In this document: positions 24,581 through 35,940 of the stretch, in pieces
How the letters are laid out: every line of letters begins with the position of its first letter
Position numbering within the stretch: position 1 is the first letter of the stretch
Notes under the pieces: model-generated
Database searches by the model: none
The model's input: the letters and a program-made list of their open reading frames with translations, nothing else
Told to the model about the DNA's origin: nothing
IMG/VR virus record: IMGVR_UViG_3300022744_000068
Location: 1-37,932 of that record
Direction: 5' to 3' (one strand)
DNA: 37,932 nucleotides
Origin: a virus
Program-made: the position numbers and the translations under genes

Positions 24581-27500
24581 ATGGCGGTGGCGAGCGCGAT
24601 CAACGGGCAGATTCTTCCCGGCAAACCAGCAACAGCGCTACCGCTGCTCGCCCCTGCGGTAGCGCGCTATCCAAATCCCCTGCTCCCCGTGCTCGGGACG
24701 GGGCTTCTCAAGTCGACGATCACCAATGCCCCTGCGCTCCACGCGGCGGGAACCATCGCGTATGGGTCTACCAGCGTCGCCGCTCCGTATCCGGTGCTCA
24801 CGTCTGGCGACAAGCTACTGCTGACCGTTGGCACCAAGCCGAACACGGCCACCATCTCGACGCCATCTGGGTGGACCCTTGTGGGGACCTACTCCGGTGG
24901 AGCAGGCACGACTGGTGCGAACACTGGCCCCACGACGATCGCTGTATTCGAGAAGCTGGCAACGGGCTCCGAGAGCGGCACGGTCACGGTATCGATCACC
25001 TCTGGCAACAGCTCTTGGGCGCAGATCACCTCGTGGATGCTCCCGCCCGGGTGTGACTCGTGGTACTCCGCAACTGCGGCGGGCAATGCCGACACAACCA
25101 CGGGGGCTGCGTGGTCTGTCACGTGCGACGGCAACCCAGGTTTGCAGCCCAATGACACTGTCTACGTCGCGAGCTGCACTCCCACGAACGTGGCCGCGGG
25201 CAGCCAGTTTTCTGCCGAGTCGGTGAGCGTAACGGGGGTAACGGGGTGGGGATCGTTCACCGAGATTTCGGAGCCTAACTCAGCAACGGGCAACCGCGTC
25301 GCGGGCTTCACGTTCTACGGATCGGTGACAGCTGGCACTGGCGCCGGCCTCCCCGTCGTCGCGGCAACGGCAAGCGGCACGACGACCAACGTGTCTGGCC
25401 CGTCCATCATGGTCAGGCTGCGGGCGTACTCATCTGCCGACAGCTTCCAGATTGCGCCGTGGGTGCACACGACCACCAACTACGGCCGTTCCTCGAGCTA
25501 CATGACATCCGAGGTCGGCGTCTTCAAAGACGTTACGACCGGGCAGCTTGTGTTCGGAGCGATCGACGCGAGCGTCACAAACGGCTTGCGCCTGTGGACT
25601 TCCGCAGACAACGGCAAGACTTGGTCAGGCCCGATCGGGACGGATACGAGCCTTTCGACCTACAGCTTTCGATCTCTCACGCAGTCTTCGGATGGGTACA
25701 TCCACTGCCTCTTGCTCGGCGCTGGCGGCGCACCCTACACGTACGCTCGACTCAGCCCGTCTTACACGAGCGGAGCGCTGACCGGATACTCCGTTTCAGC
25801 GACCTACACGATCGGCACGGGCTCGGAGACAGGCGAGCTAAAAGGCGCGATCCAGGTCATCAAGGACCAGTCTGGAACCGAGTGCCTTTTTTTCTGCGGC
25901 AACACGCCCAACGCAGGGGGCACTGGCATCTTCACGTTTTGCCAGAAGACACTCACGACAACGCCAGCGGCAGGAACCGACTGGACGAAGCTAGATGGCA
26001 CATCGGGCATCACGAGCATTGAAGACCGCGCCACGGCTGGCCTGAACAACCACGAGCAAGACTGCGTCTTCGGACAGATTCCGTCGACACAGGTTATCTG
26101 GGTGGCCACGTCGCGCGTGCCAATGGAGCACGTGATCGACAGCTTCACGCTGAATCGGTTCAAGCTCACTCCGACCGGCGCGCACACCTGGTCCGTGGGA
26201 TCTGCCGTCGTCGGCGTCGCCTCAGCACACGCGATGTGCATGGCGCAAGCGAACGACAAGCTCTTTCTCCTCGCCAACTACGTGAACACGGATACCGTGG
26301 CAGACCCACTCGGCGCCACGGGTCTCAGCGTCGACTTGATCGACAGCAGCGACACGTACACGCGCGCCTACCTGACGAATTCGGCGGCGTGGATCGATCA
26401 CCCGCACACGCAGGCCGCCATCTCGTGCAGCGGCGACGGCAGCAAAGTCTACGTGGTCACGGAGACGTGGGAAGACCCTTACTCATACTGCGTTTTCTCG
26501 GCGTGGAACGGCTCGACGTGGGTAAACCACCAAGCAGAGCCGCAAGTCTTCTCGTTCAATGGTCCGTTCGGATTCAAGCGATCCGTTGGCTGGGATAACG
26601 GCCTATGCCTACTCAGGCCGGACCTCGTCGATATAAGCCCGTGGACCGCGACCTTTTACCTCGTCCCATCTGCCGCTGCCTCCAGTGCGGTCGCGGGCAC
26701 CGCCTCGGGCGTAGGCACTGCCTCTGCGACAGTTGCTGCCACAGGCGTCATCGCTGGTTCGAGTGCAGGCGTAGGAACGCCTTCCGCTACGGTTCTCGGC
26801 GCTGTTGACGTGGCCGGCTCAAGCGCTGGAGTAGGTTCCGCATCGGCAAACGCGGTTGGCACCAGCGCGATTGCAGGCACCAGCGCGGGAGTCGGGGCGG
26901 CGTCCGCCACGCTCGCTGGCACGGGCGCCATTGCTGGCACGAGCGCCGGCGTGGGCACGGGCACGGACACGCTTGCGGGCACGGGAGCTCTAGCGGGCTC
27001 GTGCGCTGGCGTGGGCAGCGCCACGTGCACGGCTGGTGTCTTGGCGCAGTTCGCCGGAACCTCGGCAGGCACGGGCAGCGCCACGGGCACGGGCGTCGCC
27101 ACGTTCCCAGCTTCAGGCACATCGGCAGGCGTGGGCACTGCGGCGGCGACGGCAGCTGGCACAGGGACCATCGCGGGCACCATCGCGGGCACTGGCACGG
27201 CCTCGACCACCTTGGCTGGCAATGTGCCGGTGGCCGGGACTTCGGCCGGCGTAGGCACCCCCACGGGCACGCTTGCGGGGTCTGGCGCGCTGGCCGGAAG
27301 CTCGCCCGGTGTCGGTACCGCCACGGGCACGGCAGCGGGCAGGGGCGCTGTGGCTGGCACCAGCGCGGGCGTTGCCACGGCCCAGGCCGGCATCTTCGAT
27401 CACTCGTCGTCGTCGGGCACCGCGGCGGGCGTGGGCACGGCCAGCGCCACGCTCACGGCCCAGGGAGCGCTCGCGGGCAGCTCGGGGGGAACGGGCACGC

Positions 27501-27856
27501 CCACGGCGGCGATGACCGGGCTGGCCCCCCTCGCGGGCGCTTGCACTGGCACAGGGACGGCGACGACCACCGCTCAGCTACGCGTGGCTGTGTCCGGCGC
27601 GGCGGCGGGCATCGGGGCCGCGTCGGCTTCTCCGACTGCATCCGTGGGCGTCTCGGGGGCGGCGGCGGGCTCGAGCTCGGCCGGCATCACAGTCGGCAGC
27701 GGCCTTCTTCCGGCGGACTGGGCGAGCTACCCAATCACGTGGGTGGGCTCCGAGGTCCAGGGCACGGCCTACGTGGGCGGCTCGGACACTGAGCAGGGCC
27801 CCGCCTACGTGGGCGCATCCGAGGCCGAGCAGGCGACAGCGTACGTGGGCGGATGA
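24581..27856 (+). CDS. large tail fibre/adhesin with Asp-box domain and 20-residue repeats
   Basis: A 1091-residue protein. Residues about 40-285 are a beta-sandwich-like region (STPSGWTLVGTYSGG, GTVTVSITSG). Residues about 300-690 include an Asp-box SADNGKTW at 341-348, as in sialidase-type beta-propellers. Residues 705-1024 are sixteen 20-residue repeats (consensus AGTSAGVGTASATLAGTGAI). The last 40 residues hold three degenerate 12-residue repeats around TAYVGGS(D/E). It is probably a host-recognition or glycan-binding fibre. A single Asp-box does not prove an enzyme. ATG at 24581 has GGAG upstream. The small-residue repeats may be a spacer that can change length. Confidence 0.68.
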   Translation: MAVASAINGQILPGKPATALPLLAPAVARYPNPLLPVLGTGLLKSTITNAPALHAAGTIAYGSTSVAAPYPVLTSGDKLLLTVGTKPNTATISTPSGWTLVGTYSGGAGTTGANTGPTTIAVFEKLATGSESGTVTVSITSGNSSWAQITSWMLPPGCDSWYSATAAGNADTTTGAAWSVTCDGNPGLQPNDTVYVASCTPTNVAAGSQFSAESVSVTGVTGWGSFTEISEPNSATGNRVAGFTFYGSVTAGTGAGLPVVAATASGTTTNVSGPSIMVRLRAYSSADSFQIAPWVHTTTNYGRSSSYMTSEVGVFKDVTTGQLVFGAIDASVTNGLRLWTSADNGKTWSGPIGTDTSLSTYSFRSLTQSSDGYIHCLLLGAGGAPYTYARLSPSYTSGALTGYSVSATYTIGTGSETGELKGAIQVIKDQSGTECLFFCGNTPNAGGTGIFTFCQKTLTTTPAAGTDWTKLDGTSGITSIEDRATAGLNNHEQDCVFGQIPSTQVIWVATSRVPMEHVIDSFTLNRFKLTPTGAHTWSVGSAVVGVASAHAMCMAQANDKLFLLANYVNTDTVADPLGATGLSVDLIDSSDTYTRAYLTNSAAWIDHPHTQAAISCSGDGSKVYVVTETWEDPYSYCVFSAWNGSTWVNHQAEPQVFSFNGPFGFKRSVGWDNGLCLLRPDLVDISPWTATFYLVPSAAASSAVAGTASGVGTASATVAATGVIAGSSAGVGTPSATVLGAVDVAGSSAGVGSASANAVGTSAIAGTSAGVGAASATLAGTGAIAGTSAGVGTGTDTLAGTGALAGSCAGVGSATCTAGVLAQFAGTSAGTGSATGTGVATFPASGTSAGVGTAAATAAGTGTIAGTIAGTGTASTTLAGNVPVAGTSAGVGTPTGTLAGSGALAGSSPGVGTATGTAAGRGAVAGTSAGVATAQAGIFDHSSSSGTAAGVGTASATLTAQGALAGSSGGTGTPTAAMTGLAPLAGACTGTGTATTTAQLRVAVSGAAAGIGAASASPTASVGVSGAAAGSSSAGITVGSGLLPADWASYPITWVGSEVQGTAYVGGSDTEQGPAYVGASEAEQATAYVGG
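26693..27652 (+). repeat. sixteen in-frame 60-base tandem repeats
   Basis: The repeat unit is exactly 60 bases (20 codons) for sixteen copies with no length change, and a partial seventeenth copy follows to about 27703. Copies share the core GTSAGVGTASAT but have diverged at the DNA level, so the array is old or selected for the protein pattern. The strict 20-residue register suggests each repeat forms one turn or rung of a fibre. Confidence 0.85.
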
Positions 27857-28753: not shown

Positions 28754-30241
28754 TCACCCTGAGTCAGCCCGAGCAGCCCCGCCAGCGGCGCCTTCCACAG
28801 CGGCAGCCAAGAACGCCACCGCGGCCATGGCAACGCCCGGCTTGCCCAGCTCATCCACGAACCGCCGCGCGGCCACCTGGTCAGGCGCCAGGCGCGCTAG
28901 AACCTCGCCGGCAAGCTCTGCTACGGCGCCTTCGCTGACGGGCTTGCCGGCTTGCATGGCCCCCAAAAGCGCTGACGCACGTTCCCCAACCGTTCCCATT
29001 TCGCCGGAACTACGCGAAACCTTTCGGGACCTCGCACATTTTGAAAACCGGCGATCCGGCAACGGGTCCGCGAGTTCGATTCTCGCCTCCTCCGCTGATT
29101 CCGCGCACTTAGCGCCATCCGTACCAGTCGCCGCGCGGGGGCCTTGGGAACGATTGGGAACGAGATTGGGAACGGGTCCGAGTAGCCTCAGGTGGAGCTC
29201 CGGCCGTGTTTCCCGCGCGGCTCGGGCCAAGCCCTCGGGGCACAGGTGGGCATAGCGTCGCGTTGTCGCGCTGGTGCTGTGGCCCAGGTACTTGGCGACT
29301 TCTTCAAGCGTCCAGGCGCGGCCCCAACTGCCCGAGATGAGATGCGACGCGCAGGTGTGGCGAAGGTCGTGAAAGCGGACGTTGCGCGTGATGCCGGCGG
29401 TGGCCAGCGCGCGGCGCATGCTGGGCGTCTTGTCGCGCGTCCGCGGCTCCCCATCGCGCCCAGGGAACACGTGAGAGCGCTTCCCGCTCCTGGCTCGCTG
29501 GCGCTCCATCGCCTCCACCGCCGGCGCGAACAGGTGAAGGGTGCGCGTCTCTCCCGTCTTGGTGGACGCCCCCTTCCAGCTGTGGCGCACCGTCGCCGTG
29601 CGCCTGGGAAGGTCCACGTCGCGCCACTCGAGGCCAAAGAGCTCGCCCGCCCTCATGCCCGTGTGGATGGCCACGATCAAGGCGTCGCGCGTCTCTTCGT
29701 CATCCACGGACGCGAGCAGGCTGGCCACTTCCTCGCGGTGCAGCCACGTCCACTTGTCAGCCGACTTGGCCACCTTGGGCACGCGCACATCGCGCGCTGG
29801 GTTCCGCTCAAGCTGCCCCGACTCGCACGCGCTCTCCAGGCACACGCGCAGCAGGTTCAGCGCGTTCGCGACCGTCTGGCGGGCGGCCCCGGCTTTGATC
29901 TGGGCCGCTACCCACTGACGCACGTCCTGCGTGGTCACGTCGCGCAGAGGGCGCCCAGCGAACGCAGAGACCAGCACGCGCTTCCATGTGTGCCGGTCAC
30001 GGCCCACGCTGCGGTGGTGGCCATCGTGCTCGCGCTCGTCCAGCCAGTCAGCGCCCCAGCCGGCGACCGTCTTCCCGGTCAGCGGGGCTTGCTCGGCGAT
30101 GCGCTCGGCAAAGAGCACCAGGGCGGCATCGGCCTCGGCGTAGGTGCGGAAGGTGCCGATGGTGGTGAGCTTGCCATCGATGCGGTAGCGCGCGCGGAAG
30201 ACGTCGCCGCGAGCCTCGACTGAGCCGGTTCGTCGGGTCAT
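28754..30241 (-). CDS. int: tyrosine recombinase integrase
   Basis: A 495-residue site-specific recombinase. An N-terminal AP2-like arm-binding domain (about 5-50, GDVFRARYRIDGK) precedes a SAM-like core-binding domain (about 58-145) and the catalytic domain, with R197 (HTGMRAGE), a probable K228, H291 and R294 (HDLRH), H321 (LGHS) and nucleophile Y330 (TRRYAHL). Most relatives end soon after the Tyr. Here the frame runs on: residues 383-402 are the antisense reading of a tRNA-Ser 3' half (the attP), and 403-495 are a further helical Ala/Glu-rich domain. Integration would replace everything after about residue 402. The start overlaps the previous stop (ATGA). It promotes integration and, with an excisionase, excision. 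Confidence 0.92.
   Translation of the reverse strand: MTRRTGSVEARGDVFRARYRIDGKLTTIGTFRTYAEADAALVLFAERIAEQAPLTGKTVAGWGADWLDEREHDGHHRSVGRDRHTWKRVLVSAFAGRPLRDVTTQDVRQWVAAQIKAGAARQTVANALNLLRVCLESACESGQLERNPARDVRVPKVAKSADKWTWLHREEVASLLASVDDEETRDALIVAIHTGMRAGELFGLEWRDVDLPRRTATVRHSWKGASTKTGETRTLHLFAPAVEAMERQRARSGKRSHVFPGRDGEPRTRDKTPSMRRALATAGITRNVRFHDLRHTCASHLISGSWGRAWTLEEVAKYLGHSTSATTRRYAHLCPEGLARAARETRPELHLRLLGPVPNLVPNRSQGPRAATGTDGAKCAESAEEARIELADPLPDRRFSKCARSRKVSRSSGEMGTVGERASALLGAMQAGKPVSEGAVAELAGEVLARLAPDQVAARRFVDELGKPGVAMAAVAFLAAAVEGAAGGAARADSG
28980..28999 (-). repeat. candidate integrase arm-type sites, left of attP
   Basis: On the minus strand this region reads two near copies of the motif TTGGGAACG: one of eight of nine bases (ATGGGAACG at 28991-28999) and one with an extra G (TTGGGGAACG at 28980-28989). 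They lie about 40-60 bases from the attP core, in the opposite orientation to the copies on the other side. Confidence 0.5.
29038..29094 (+). other. attP: attP: 3' half of a tRNA-Ser(UGA) gene
   Basis: The plus strand carries a tRNA 3' half. It has an anticodon loop with UGA and the 3' stem (TTTTGAAAACCGG, 29039-29051), a variable arm GATCCG-GCAA-CGGGTC (29053-29068, six pairs), a T arm GCGAG-TTCGATT-CTCGC (29070-29086), acceptor strand CTCCTCC (29087-29093) and discriminator G. The 5' half is absent: upstream bases do not pair with the anticodon stem. Long-variable-arm type plus UGA indicate tRNA-Ser. The match begins in the anticodon loop, a usual crossover place for tyrosine integrases. 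This is a phage attP that rebuilds the host tRNA on integration. It lies inside the integrase reading frame. Confidence 0.85.
29144..29174 (+). repeat. candidate integrase arm-type sites, right of attP
   Basis: Three exact direct copies of TTGGGAACG at 29144-29152, 29154-29162 and 29166-29174, with spacings of 10 and 12 bases (about one helical turn). They lie 50-80 bases from the attP core and inside the integrase coding sequence, where they encode PVPNLVPNRS-like sequence. The related inverted copies on the left suggest arm sites for the integrase N-terminal domain. Confidence 0.6.
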
Positions 30242-35532: not shown

Positions 35533-35931
35533 TCACTTCTTCCGGGTCCCGTAGAGCACTCTCAGCACCAACGAAATCTGGTCATCGTTGACGTCGACGT
35601 CACGCAGCGCCAGCGCCAGGCCCTCTCTCTCGGTGCTCGTGAGGTGTTTCCATTCTGGATGAGACAACAGCGTGCGAATGCGTTCCGTCTTCACGTCTTT
35701 CGGCCCCCCGACGCGCCGATCCCCATAGAGGATATGATCGGCGCCGACCCCAAAGAGCTCTGCTAACCGCGGTAGGAGCGCAGTCGGCAATGCCCGCCCG
35801 TTCTCCCAGCGACTTACTGTTGCCGTACTGGCACTGTCAAGAGATTCCGCGAGCTGCTGCTGGGTCATGCCCCTGGCTTCGCGCAGCGCCCTGATTCGAG
35901 CGCCTACTGCTTTAGGGTCAATGTGAGCCAT
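35533..35931 (-). CDS. XRE-family phage repressor, CI-like
   Basis: A 132-residue protein. Residues 7-68 are a classic XRE helix-turn-helix domain (VGARIRALREARGMTQQQLA; STATVSRWENGRALPT; LAELFGVGADHILYG). The C-terminal 60 residues are charged and helical with no S24 self-cleaving peptidase, so induction is unlikely to be by RecA-stimulated cleavage. The ATG at 35931 is preferred; a GTG at 35937 adds two residues. The promoter on its minus strand places the transcript start only a few bases before this ATG, suggesting a leaderless mRNA. It is transcribed divergently from the second XRE gene and is followed by its own terminator. Confidence 0.85.
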   Translation of the reverse strand: MAHIDPKAVGARIRALREARGMTQQQLAESLDSASTATVSRWENGRALPTALLPRLAELFGVGADHILYGDRRVGGPKDVKTERIRTLLSHPEWKHLTSTEREGLALALRDVDVNDDQISLVLRVLYGTRKK

Positions 35932-35940
35932 ATGCACACA

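Follow-up and report, generated by a model that had tools for sequence, protein, structure and literature searches.

The integrase gene and its attP

The window, by which we mean the whole 37,932-nucleotide stretch analysed here, is a 37.9-kb metagenomic viral contig whose record carries no host contig. The gene content by PHROG annotation, which includes a tail sheath, a terminase, a repressor and genes for recombination, is that of a temperate myophage. Its 495-aa integrase ORF (Table 1) matches Phage_integrase of Pfam over residues 166-333 (E 3e-28) and a PHROG integrase (E 2e-68). The catalytic residues R197, K228, H291, R294, H321 and Y330 complete the R..K..HxxR..H..Y pattern of a tyrosine recombinase, with Y330 as the nucleophile. 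The AlphaFold2 model depicts a normal integrase for residues 1-343, disorder for 344-415 and helices, at modest confidence, for 418-485; a structure search with the same protein returned the lambda, Tn1549 and Xer integrases. Elsewhere in the window, positions 24581-27856 (+) encode a putative tail or fibre protein of 1091 aa, with a long AGTSAGVGTASATxAGTG-type repeat making up its C-terminal part, and long shadow ORFs run here on the opposite strand and in other frames.

Table 1 Features of the integrase–attP region of the window
Feature	Position	Strand	Basis
Tyrosine integrase ORF, 495 aa, free-phage form	28754..30241	-	ORF call, Pfam, PHROG
Catalytic domain, residues 166-333	29243..29746	-	Pfam match and invariant alignment columns
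Predicted disordered linker, residues 344-415	28997..29212	-	AlphaFold2 pLDDT < 50
Arm-type repeat TTGGGAACG, copy 3	29166..29174	+	Repeat search
Arm-type repeat TTGGGAACG, copy 2	29154..29162	+	Repeat search
Arm-type repeat TTGGGAACG, copy 1	29144..29152	+	Repeat search
attP core, tRNA-Ser(UGA) 3' half, anticodon loop to discriminator base	29038..29094	+	Sequence, tRNA-Ser genes of Myxococcota compared
Post-core frame (residues 403-495), predicted loss on integration	28757..29035	-	Sequence, ORF, coding signal
Inverted arm-type repeat, near-copy ATGGGAACG	28991..28999	-	Repeat search
Inverted arm-type repeat, near-copy TGGGGAACG	28980..28988	-	Repeat search
Predicted helical C-terminal domain, residues 418-485	28787..28990	-	Profile (weak member), AlphaFold2

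Within this ORF, and antisense to it, lies the attP core, a 57-bp tRNA half that reads TTTTGAAAACC..GCGAGTTCGATTCTCGCCTCCTCCG. It comprises an anticodon loop with TGA, a T-arm whose stem is 5 bp long, and the acceptor strand CTCCTCC. This strand complements GGAGGAG, with which most of the tRNA-Ser(UGA) genes detected in 12 genomes of Myxococcota begin. In structure the core thus matches a tRNA-Ser(UGA) 3' half, which integration could restore to a whole tRNA. Neither ARAGORN nor Rfam reported a complete tRNA in the window, as expected where only a half is present. The core spans integrase codons 383-402 and is followed by 93 further codons. As Y330 and the entire catalytic domain are encoded upstream of the core, integration would leave the catalytic body unchanged.

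The whole record contains three copies of the repeat TTGGGAACG, all of them at 29144-29174, and two inverted near-copies lie on the other side of the core. This corresponds to the usual attP order of P arm, core and P' arm, here wholly intragenic: all five arm-type sites fall within the integrase ORF. None of 300 shuffles produced a tandem repeat accompanied by an inverted copy on the opposite side of the core. The preliminary description had located the ORF, the tRNA-Ser half, the antisense residues and the 93-residue remainder exactly, and its placement of the repeats within the integrase frame is borne out, with the inverted near-copies as an addition. Since arm-site and core DNA coincides with residues 344-415, the same DNA codes for the disordered linker. 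Past the core, codon usage falls between that of true frames and that of false ones and is only weakly gene-like; the long frame by itself is weaker evidence than the layout of arms and core.

A Myxococcota clade with attP inside int

A direct single-protein search found no close relatives of the window integrase. Distant alignments reached a clade of integrases in viral contigs and Myxococcota MAGs. In a tree of 75 integrases, drawn from the midpoint root, the window groups with 53 others (54 rows, support 100/98) and branches first as drawn; all named taxa in this group are Myxococcota or carry the older label "delta proteobacterium". The core lies inside int in 35 of the 54 rows and outside in 5, with no position called for 14. 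Mapped on the full tree of 75 integrases, the "inside" label requires 14 changes, as compared to 25.4 for shuffled labels. The trait is thus clustered, yet it has moved in or out repeatedly. Some clade members (L010, L011, L281, L248 and L250) have the core outside int, which indicates that the overlap is dispensable for integration. The preliminary description had named relatives whose integrase ends before the core, with an extra frame that is not conserved, as evidence against its reading; these close relatives provide such evidence in part.

Of the attP forms examined that have the core inside int, 12, the window among them, show the tandem pair with an inverted copy, whereas L279, L290, L292, L299 and L032 lack this layout in an exact 7-mer test. 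In two relatives the next gene seems to start over the stop of the free-form int (L032, 5246-5249; L012, 5614-5620; TGATG, ATGGCTGA), an overlap that supports the long-form stop as a real gene end. A tRNA-Arg call in L032 was rejected, as it looks like the chance completion of a 3' half.

Integrated forms in relatives

In Myxococcota genomes, the ORFs of at least 12 distinct clade integrases enter a complete tRNA antisense and terminate within it. The tRNAs concerned are Gly-CCC (L090/L242, L243), Thr-CGT (L091, L092, L252), Arg-CCT (L247, L253, L254, L258), Arg-ACG (L093, L094) and Lys-TTT (L260); Trp-CCA in the viral contig L304 is additional to this set. At ten loci, L304 among them, the ORF stops 14 nt before the tRNA 5' end, at a codon that is the complement of tRNA nucleotides 12-14 (TCA) in the conserved D-arm. 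The frame continues beyond the tRNA in L096, L014 and L095. A single universal frame through the tRNA was considered and rejected, as frames differ between phages. Separately, in one Myxococcaceae MAG (G003; contigs C56, C75, C92 and C184) at least five tRNA-Gly 3' halves lack the tRNA 5' half (L272, L273, L274, L276 and L277), a pattern as from repeated integration at one tRNA type.

Joining attL and attR flanks provided a direct comparison of integrase 3' ends, as the preliminary description had proposed. In the L092 genome a 47-bp core is present twice, at a spacing of 5.3 kb; the prophage ORF of 423 codons ends in ...GLRNRCSTN, and the joined flanks yield 465 codons ending in ...RCPKCRKCPTEQ. 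The L091 genome holds one attL and two attR copies, and either join gives 465 codons. Hence, 423-aa prophage ORFs become 465-aa ORFs in two MAGs. The joined tails are short and cysteine-rich (CTQC...CPKCRKC), reminiscent of a small zinc ribbon and unlike the helical tail of the phages. Judged by eye, ORFs of the small L092 element itself (G001:C8, 1812-7186; about 5.3 kb between tRNA-Thr core copies) resemble genes for a protease of the trypsin type and a surface protein rich in repeats more than phage genes. Small integrated elements of about 8.5-9.6 kb between tRNA-Thr core copies are also present in G002:C149 (6759-16429), where three core copies in a row suggest tandem islands.

A second comparison comes from viral contigs. 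L304 adjoins a complete tRNA-Trp and its integrase ends in ...GGLEPTTCGFGIRCSTN; L305 and L306, which are identical over the compared stretch, are devoid of the tRNA 5' half and their integrase reads ...GGLEPTTCGFGRPGES..LSSLRK. The proteins resemble each other closely as far as the core and part at its end; both predicted states, integrated and free, are seen in related viruses. In these relatives, integration exchanges the integrase C-terminus for sequence read from the host tRNA. The proposed loss of the C-terminus in the prophage is therefore observed in relatives, through complete tRNAs, attL/attR joins and the L304/L305 pair; for the window itself it was simulated.

The post-core frame and the simulated prophage form of the window

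The frame beyond the core may encode a domain in its own right, or it may happen to run across attP in a stop-poor, GC-rich genome, with extra residues that have no role and integration trimming dispensable sequence. We consider the latter unlikely. The attP-form tails share the motif LAxxxLxAxxxGxxxxxxxAxxLAxAVL, and in a leave-one-out profile test nine tails attached to differing tRNA cores beat all 500 shuffles, which argues for one common domain; L290 and L032 nearly did so. The tails of L288, L299, L305 and L310 did not beat their shuffles, and the short tails of L305 and L310, unrelated to the helical domain, fit a passive overlap. So do the weak coding signal past the core, the relatives with a core just outside int, and the tail of the Myxococcus phage Mx8 (see below), which the C-terminal domain profile did not detect. 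Conversely, the L091/L092 tail copies keep length and frame with a dN/dS of 0.23-0.32 over their post-core codons between species (0.82 for two copies of this type within one genome). Moreover, much of the C-terminus of Mx8 Int is needed for efficient recombination, which likewise speaks against a roleless tail.

For the window tail the profile gave 6.7 bits, a marginal score that is in keeping with a passive overlap: 9 of 2000 shuffles scored as well and one unrelated stretch of the window scored higher. Membership in the helical domain family is thus likely but not firm. Plain homology between the window and L012 tails was rejected, their pairwise similarity being no better than that of shuffles; the profile evidence remains. 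Four helices are predicted for the domain of L278. Comparison of the domain with the PDB gave no convincing match (best E 3.5), and no Pfam family scored above cut-off. In G003, the attR-like tRNA-Gly fragment L276 carries a tail that is in frame with the L090 integrase and joins the helical domain family; we regard this fragment as a candidate attR of the L090 element.

The preliminary description had suggested a search of bacterial genomes with the core as a route to hosts and lysogens. Exact and degenerate searches of viral contigs and 84,980 genomes returned no match, nor did a search of 379 Myxococcota genomes at up to 3 mismatches. The prophage form was instead simulated by joining the window int to tRNA-Ser(UGA) 5' halves taken from twelve actual Myxococcota genes. 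In seven of these simulations the predicted integrase is 404 aa long; four others give 416-438 aa and one gives 511 aa, and the 93 post-core residues are lost in all twelve. By analogy with its relatives, we infer that the window integrase, too, would have its C-terminus exchanged on integration.

Relation to known systems

The principle of an attP inside int is known already from the Myxococcus phages Mx8 and Mx9 (PMC6070905, PMC4701971, PMC4383910); the window adds a member whose integrase is divergent and whose tRNA is a different one. The changed Mx8 integrase is described in a review as altered in specificity, not inactivated, and as acting as a switch (PMC6070905); the prophage form has also been called less active (PMC4701971). 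Integrases extending across attP are provided for in the Islander database, which names Mx8 and SSV. In Mx8, as in the window, attP with a tRNA 3' end lies in int; integration replaces the integrase C-terminus in Mx8 and would do so in the window. Both show tandem repeats (11 bp apart in Mx8) before the core and one copy after it, and Mx8 shares a myxobacterial host lineage with the window clade. Still, the two integrases are only about 26% identical, the target is tRNA-Asp in Mx8 as opposed to tRNA-Ser(UGA) in the window, and the repeat after the core is direct in Mx8 and inverted in the window.

BPs-type mycobacteriophages, the parallel drawn in the preliminary description, carry attP in the repressor gene (integration-dependent immunity). 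The likeness holds insofar as attP lies in a coding gene, so that integration changes a protein C-terminus. In the window, however, it is the integrase gene that holds attP, and the likely repressor (35533-35937, PHROG) is encoded far from it; Mx8 and Mx9, with attP in int itself, are the closer precedent. Streptococcal ICEs in rumA also have their att site inside the integrase gene, with a C-terminus that differs between the integrated and excised states (PMC4701971), and thereby resemble the window in having two C-terminal forms; they differ in using a serine integrase and a non-tRNA target.

Archaeal SSV-type elements, too, carry attP within the integrase gene, and their integration parts an N-terminal portion from the catalytic domain (PMC8371274). 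A corresponding suicidal integrase in the window, inactivated by integration and dependent on an intact integrase from another phage for excision, appears quite improbable: here all catalytic residues precede the core and the domain stays whole, the prophage forms of relatives retain these residues, and the altered Mx8 enzyme is not inactivated (PMC6070905). Among bacteria, attP inside int is exemplified by Mx8 and the window clade, though with the catalytic part spared. That the window is an attR-like or chimeric assembly and its long ORF an artefact, as might be suspected of a metagenomic record of 37.9 kb that comes without a host contig, is scarcely credible given matching inverted arm sites on both sides of one core, a frame unbroken across that core and the recurrence of the layout in unrelated contigs.

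As far as the literature was searched, the wide occurrence of the trait among Myxococcota elements, their shared arm layout, the free-form domain and the natural pairs seem to be new. The stops supplied by host tRNAs also count among the additions to the known principle.

Proposed mechanism and implications

In summary, the window very probably holds an Mx8-type int–attP module in which integration at tRNA-Ser(UGA) swaps the end of the integrase, leaves a prophage form without the helical domain, and matters to the phage. The free-phage integrase would combine a standard arm-binding, core-binding and catalytic body with a small helical domain at the C-terminus, and the DNA of the disordered linker between them would also constitute the attP arms and core. 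Recombination of attP with the 3' half of a tRNA-Ser(UGA) gene in the host would restore the tRNA and join int to the tRNA 5' half, giving a prophage integrase with an intact catalytic body from which the helical domain is gone; excision would rejoin the full gene. Most likely, it is the full-length enzyme that integrates efficiently, and the truncated enzyme of the prophage may be altered or weaker, which would favour stable lysogeny until induction. The helical domain may act on assembly, stability or direction.

Tentatively, this may extend to a state-reporting integrase across a large clade of Myxococcota phages and islands, with a helical domain unique to the free form helping to drive integration and a stop in the host tRNA D-arm removing it, although we hold this wider proposal to be rather doubtful. 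If true, such an integrase would provide built-in directionality without a separate regulator. An attP inside int is the common state in this Myxococcota integrase clade (clearly so in 35 of 54 rows), and the natural before-and-after pairs, together with the conserved free-form domain, make it directly testable whether integration is sensed via the integrase gene.
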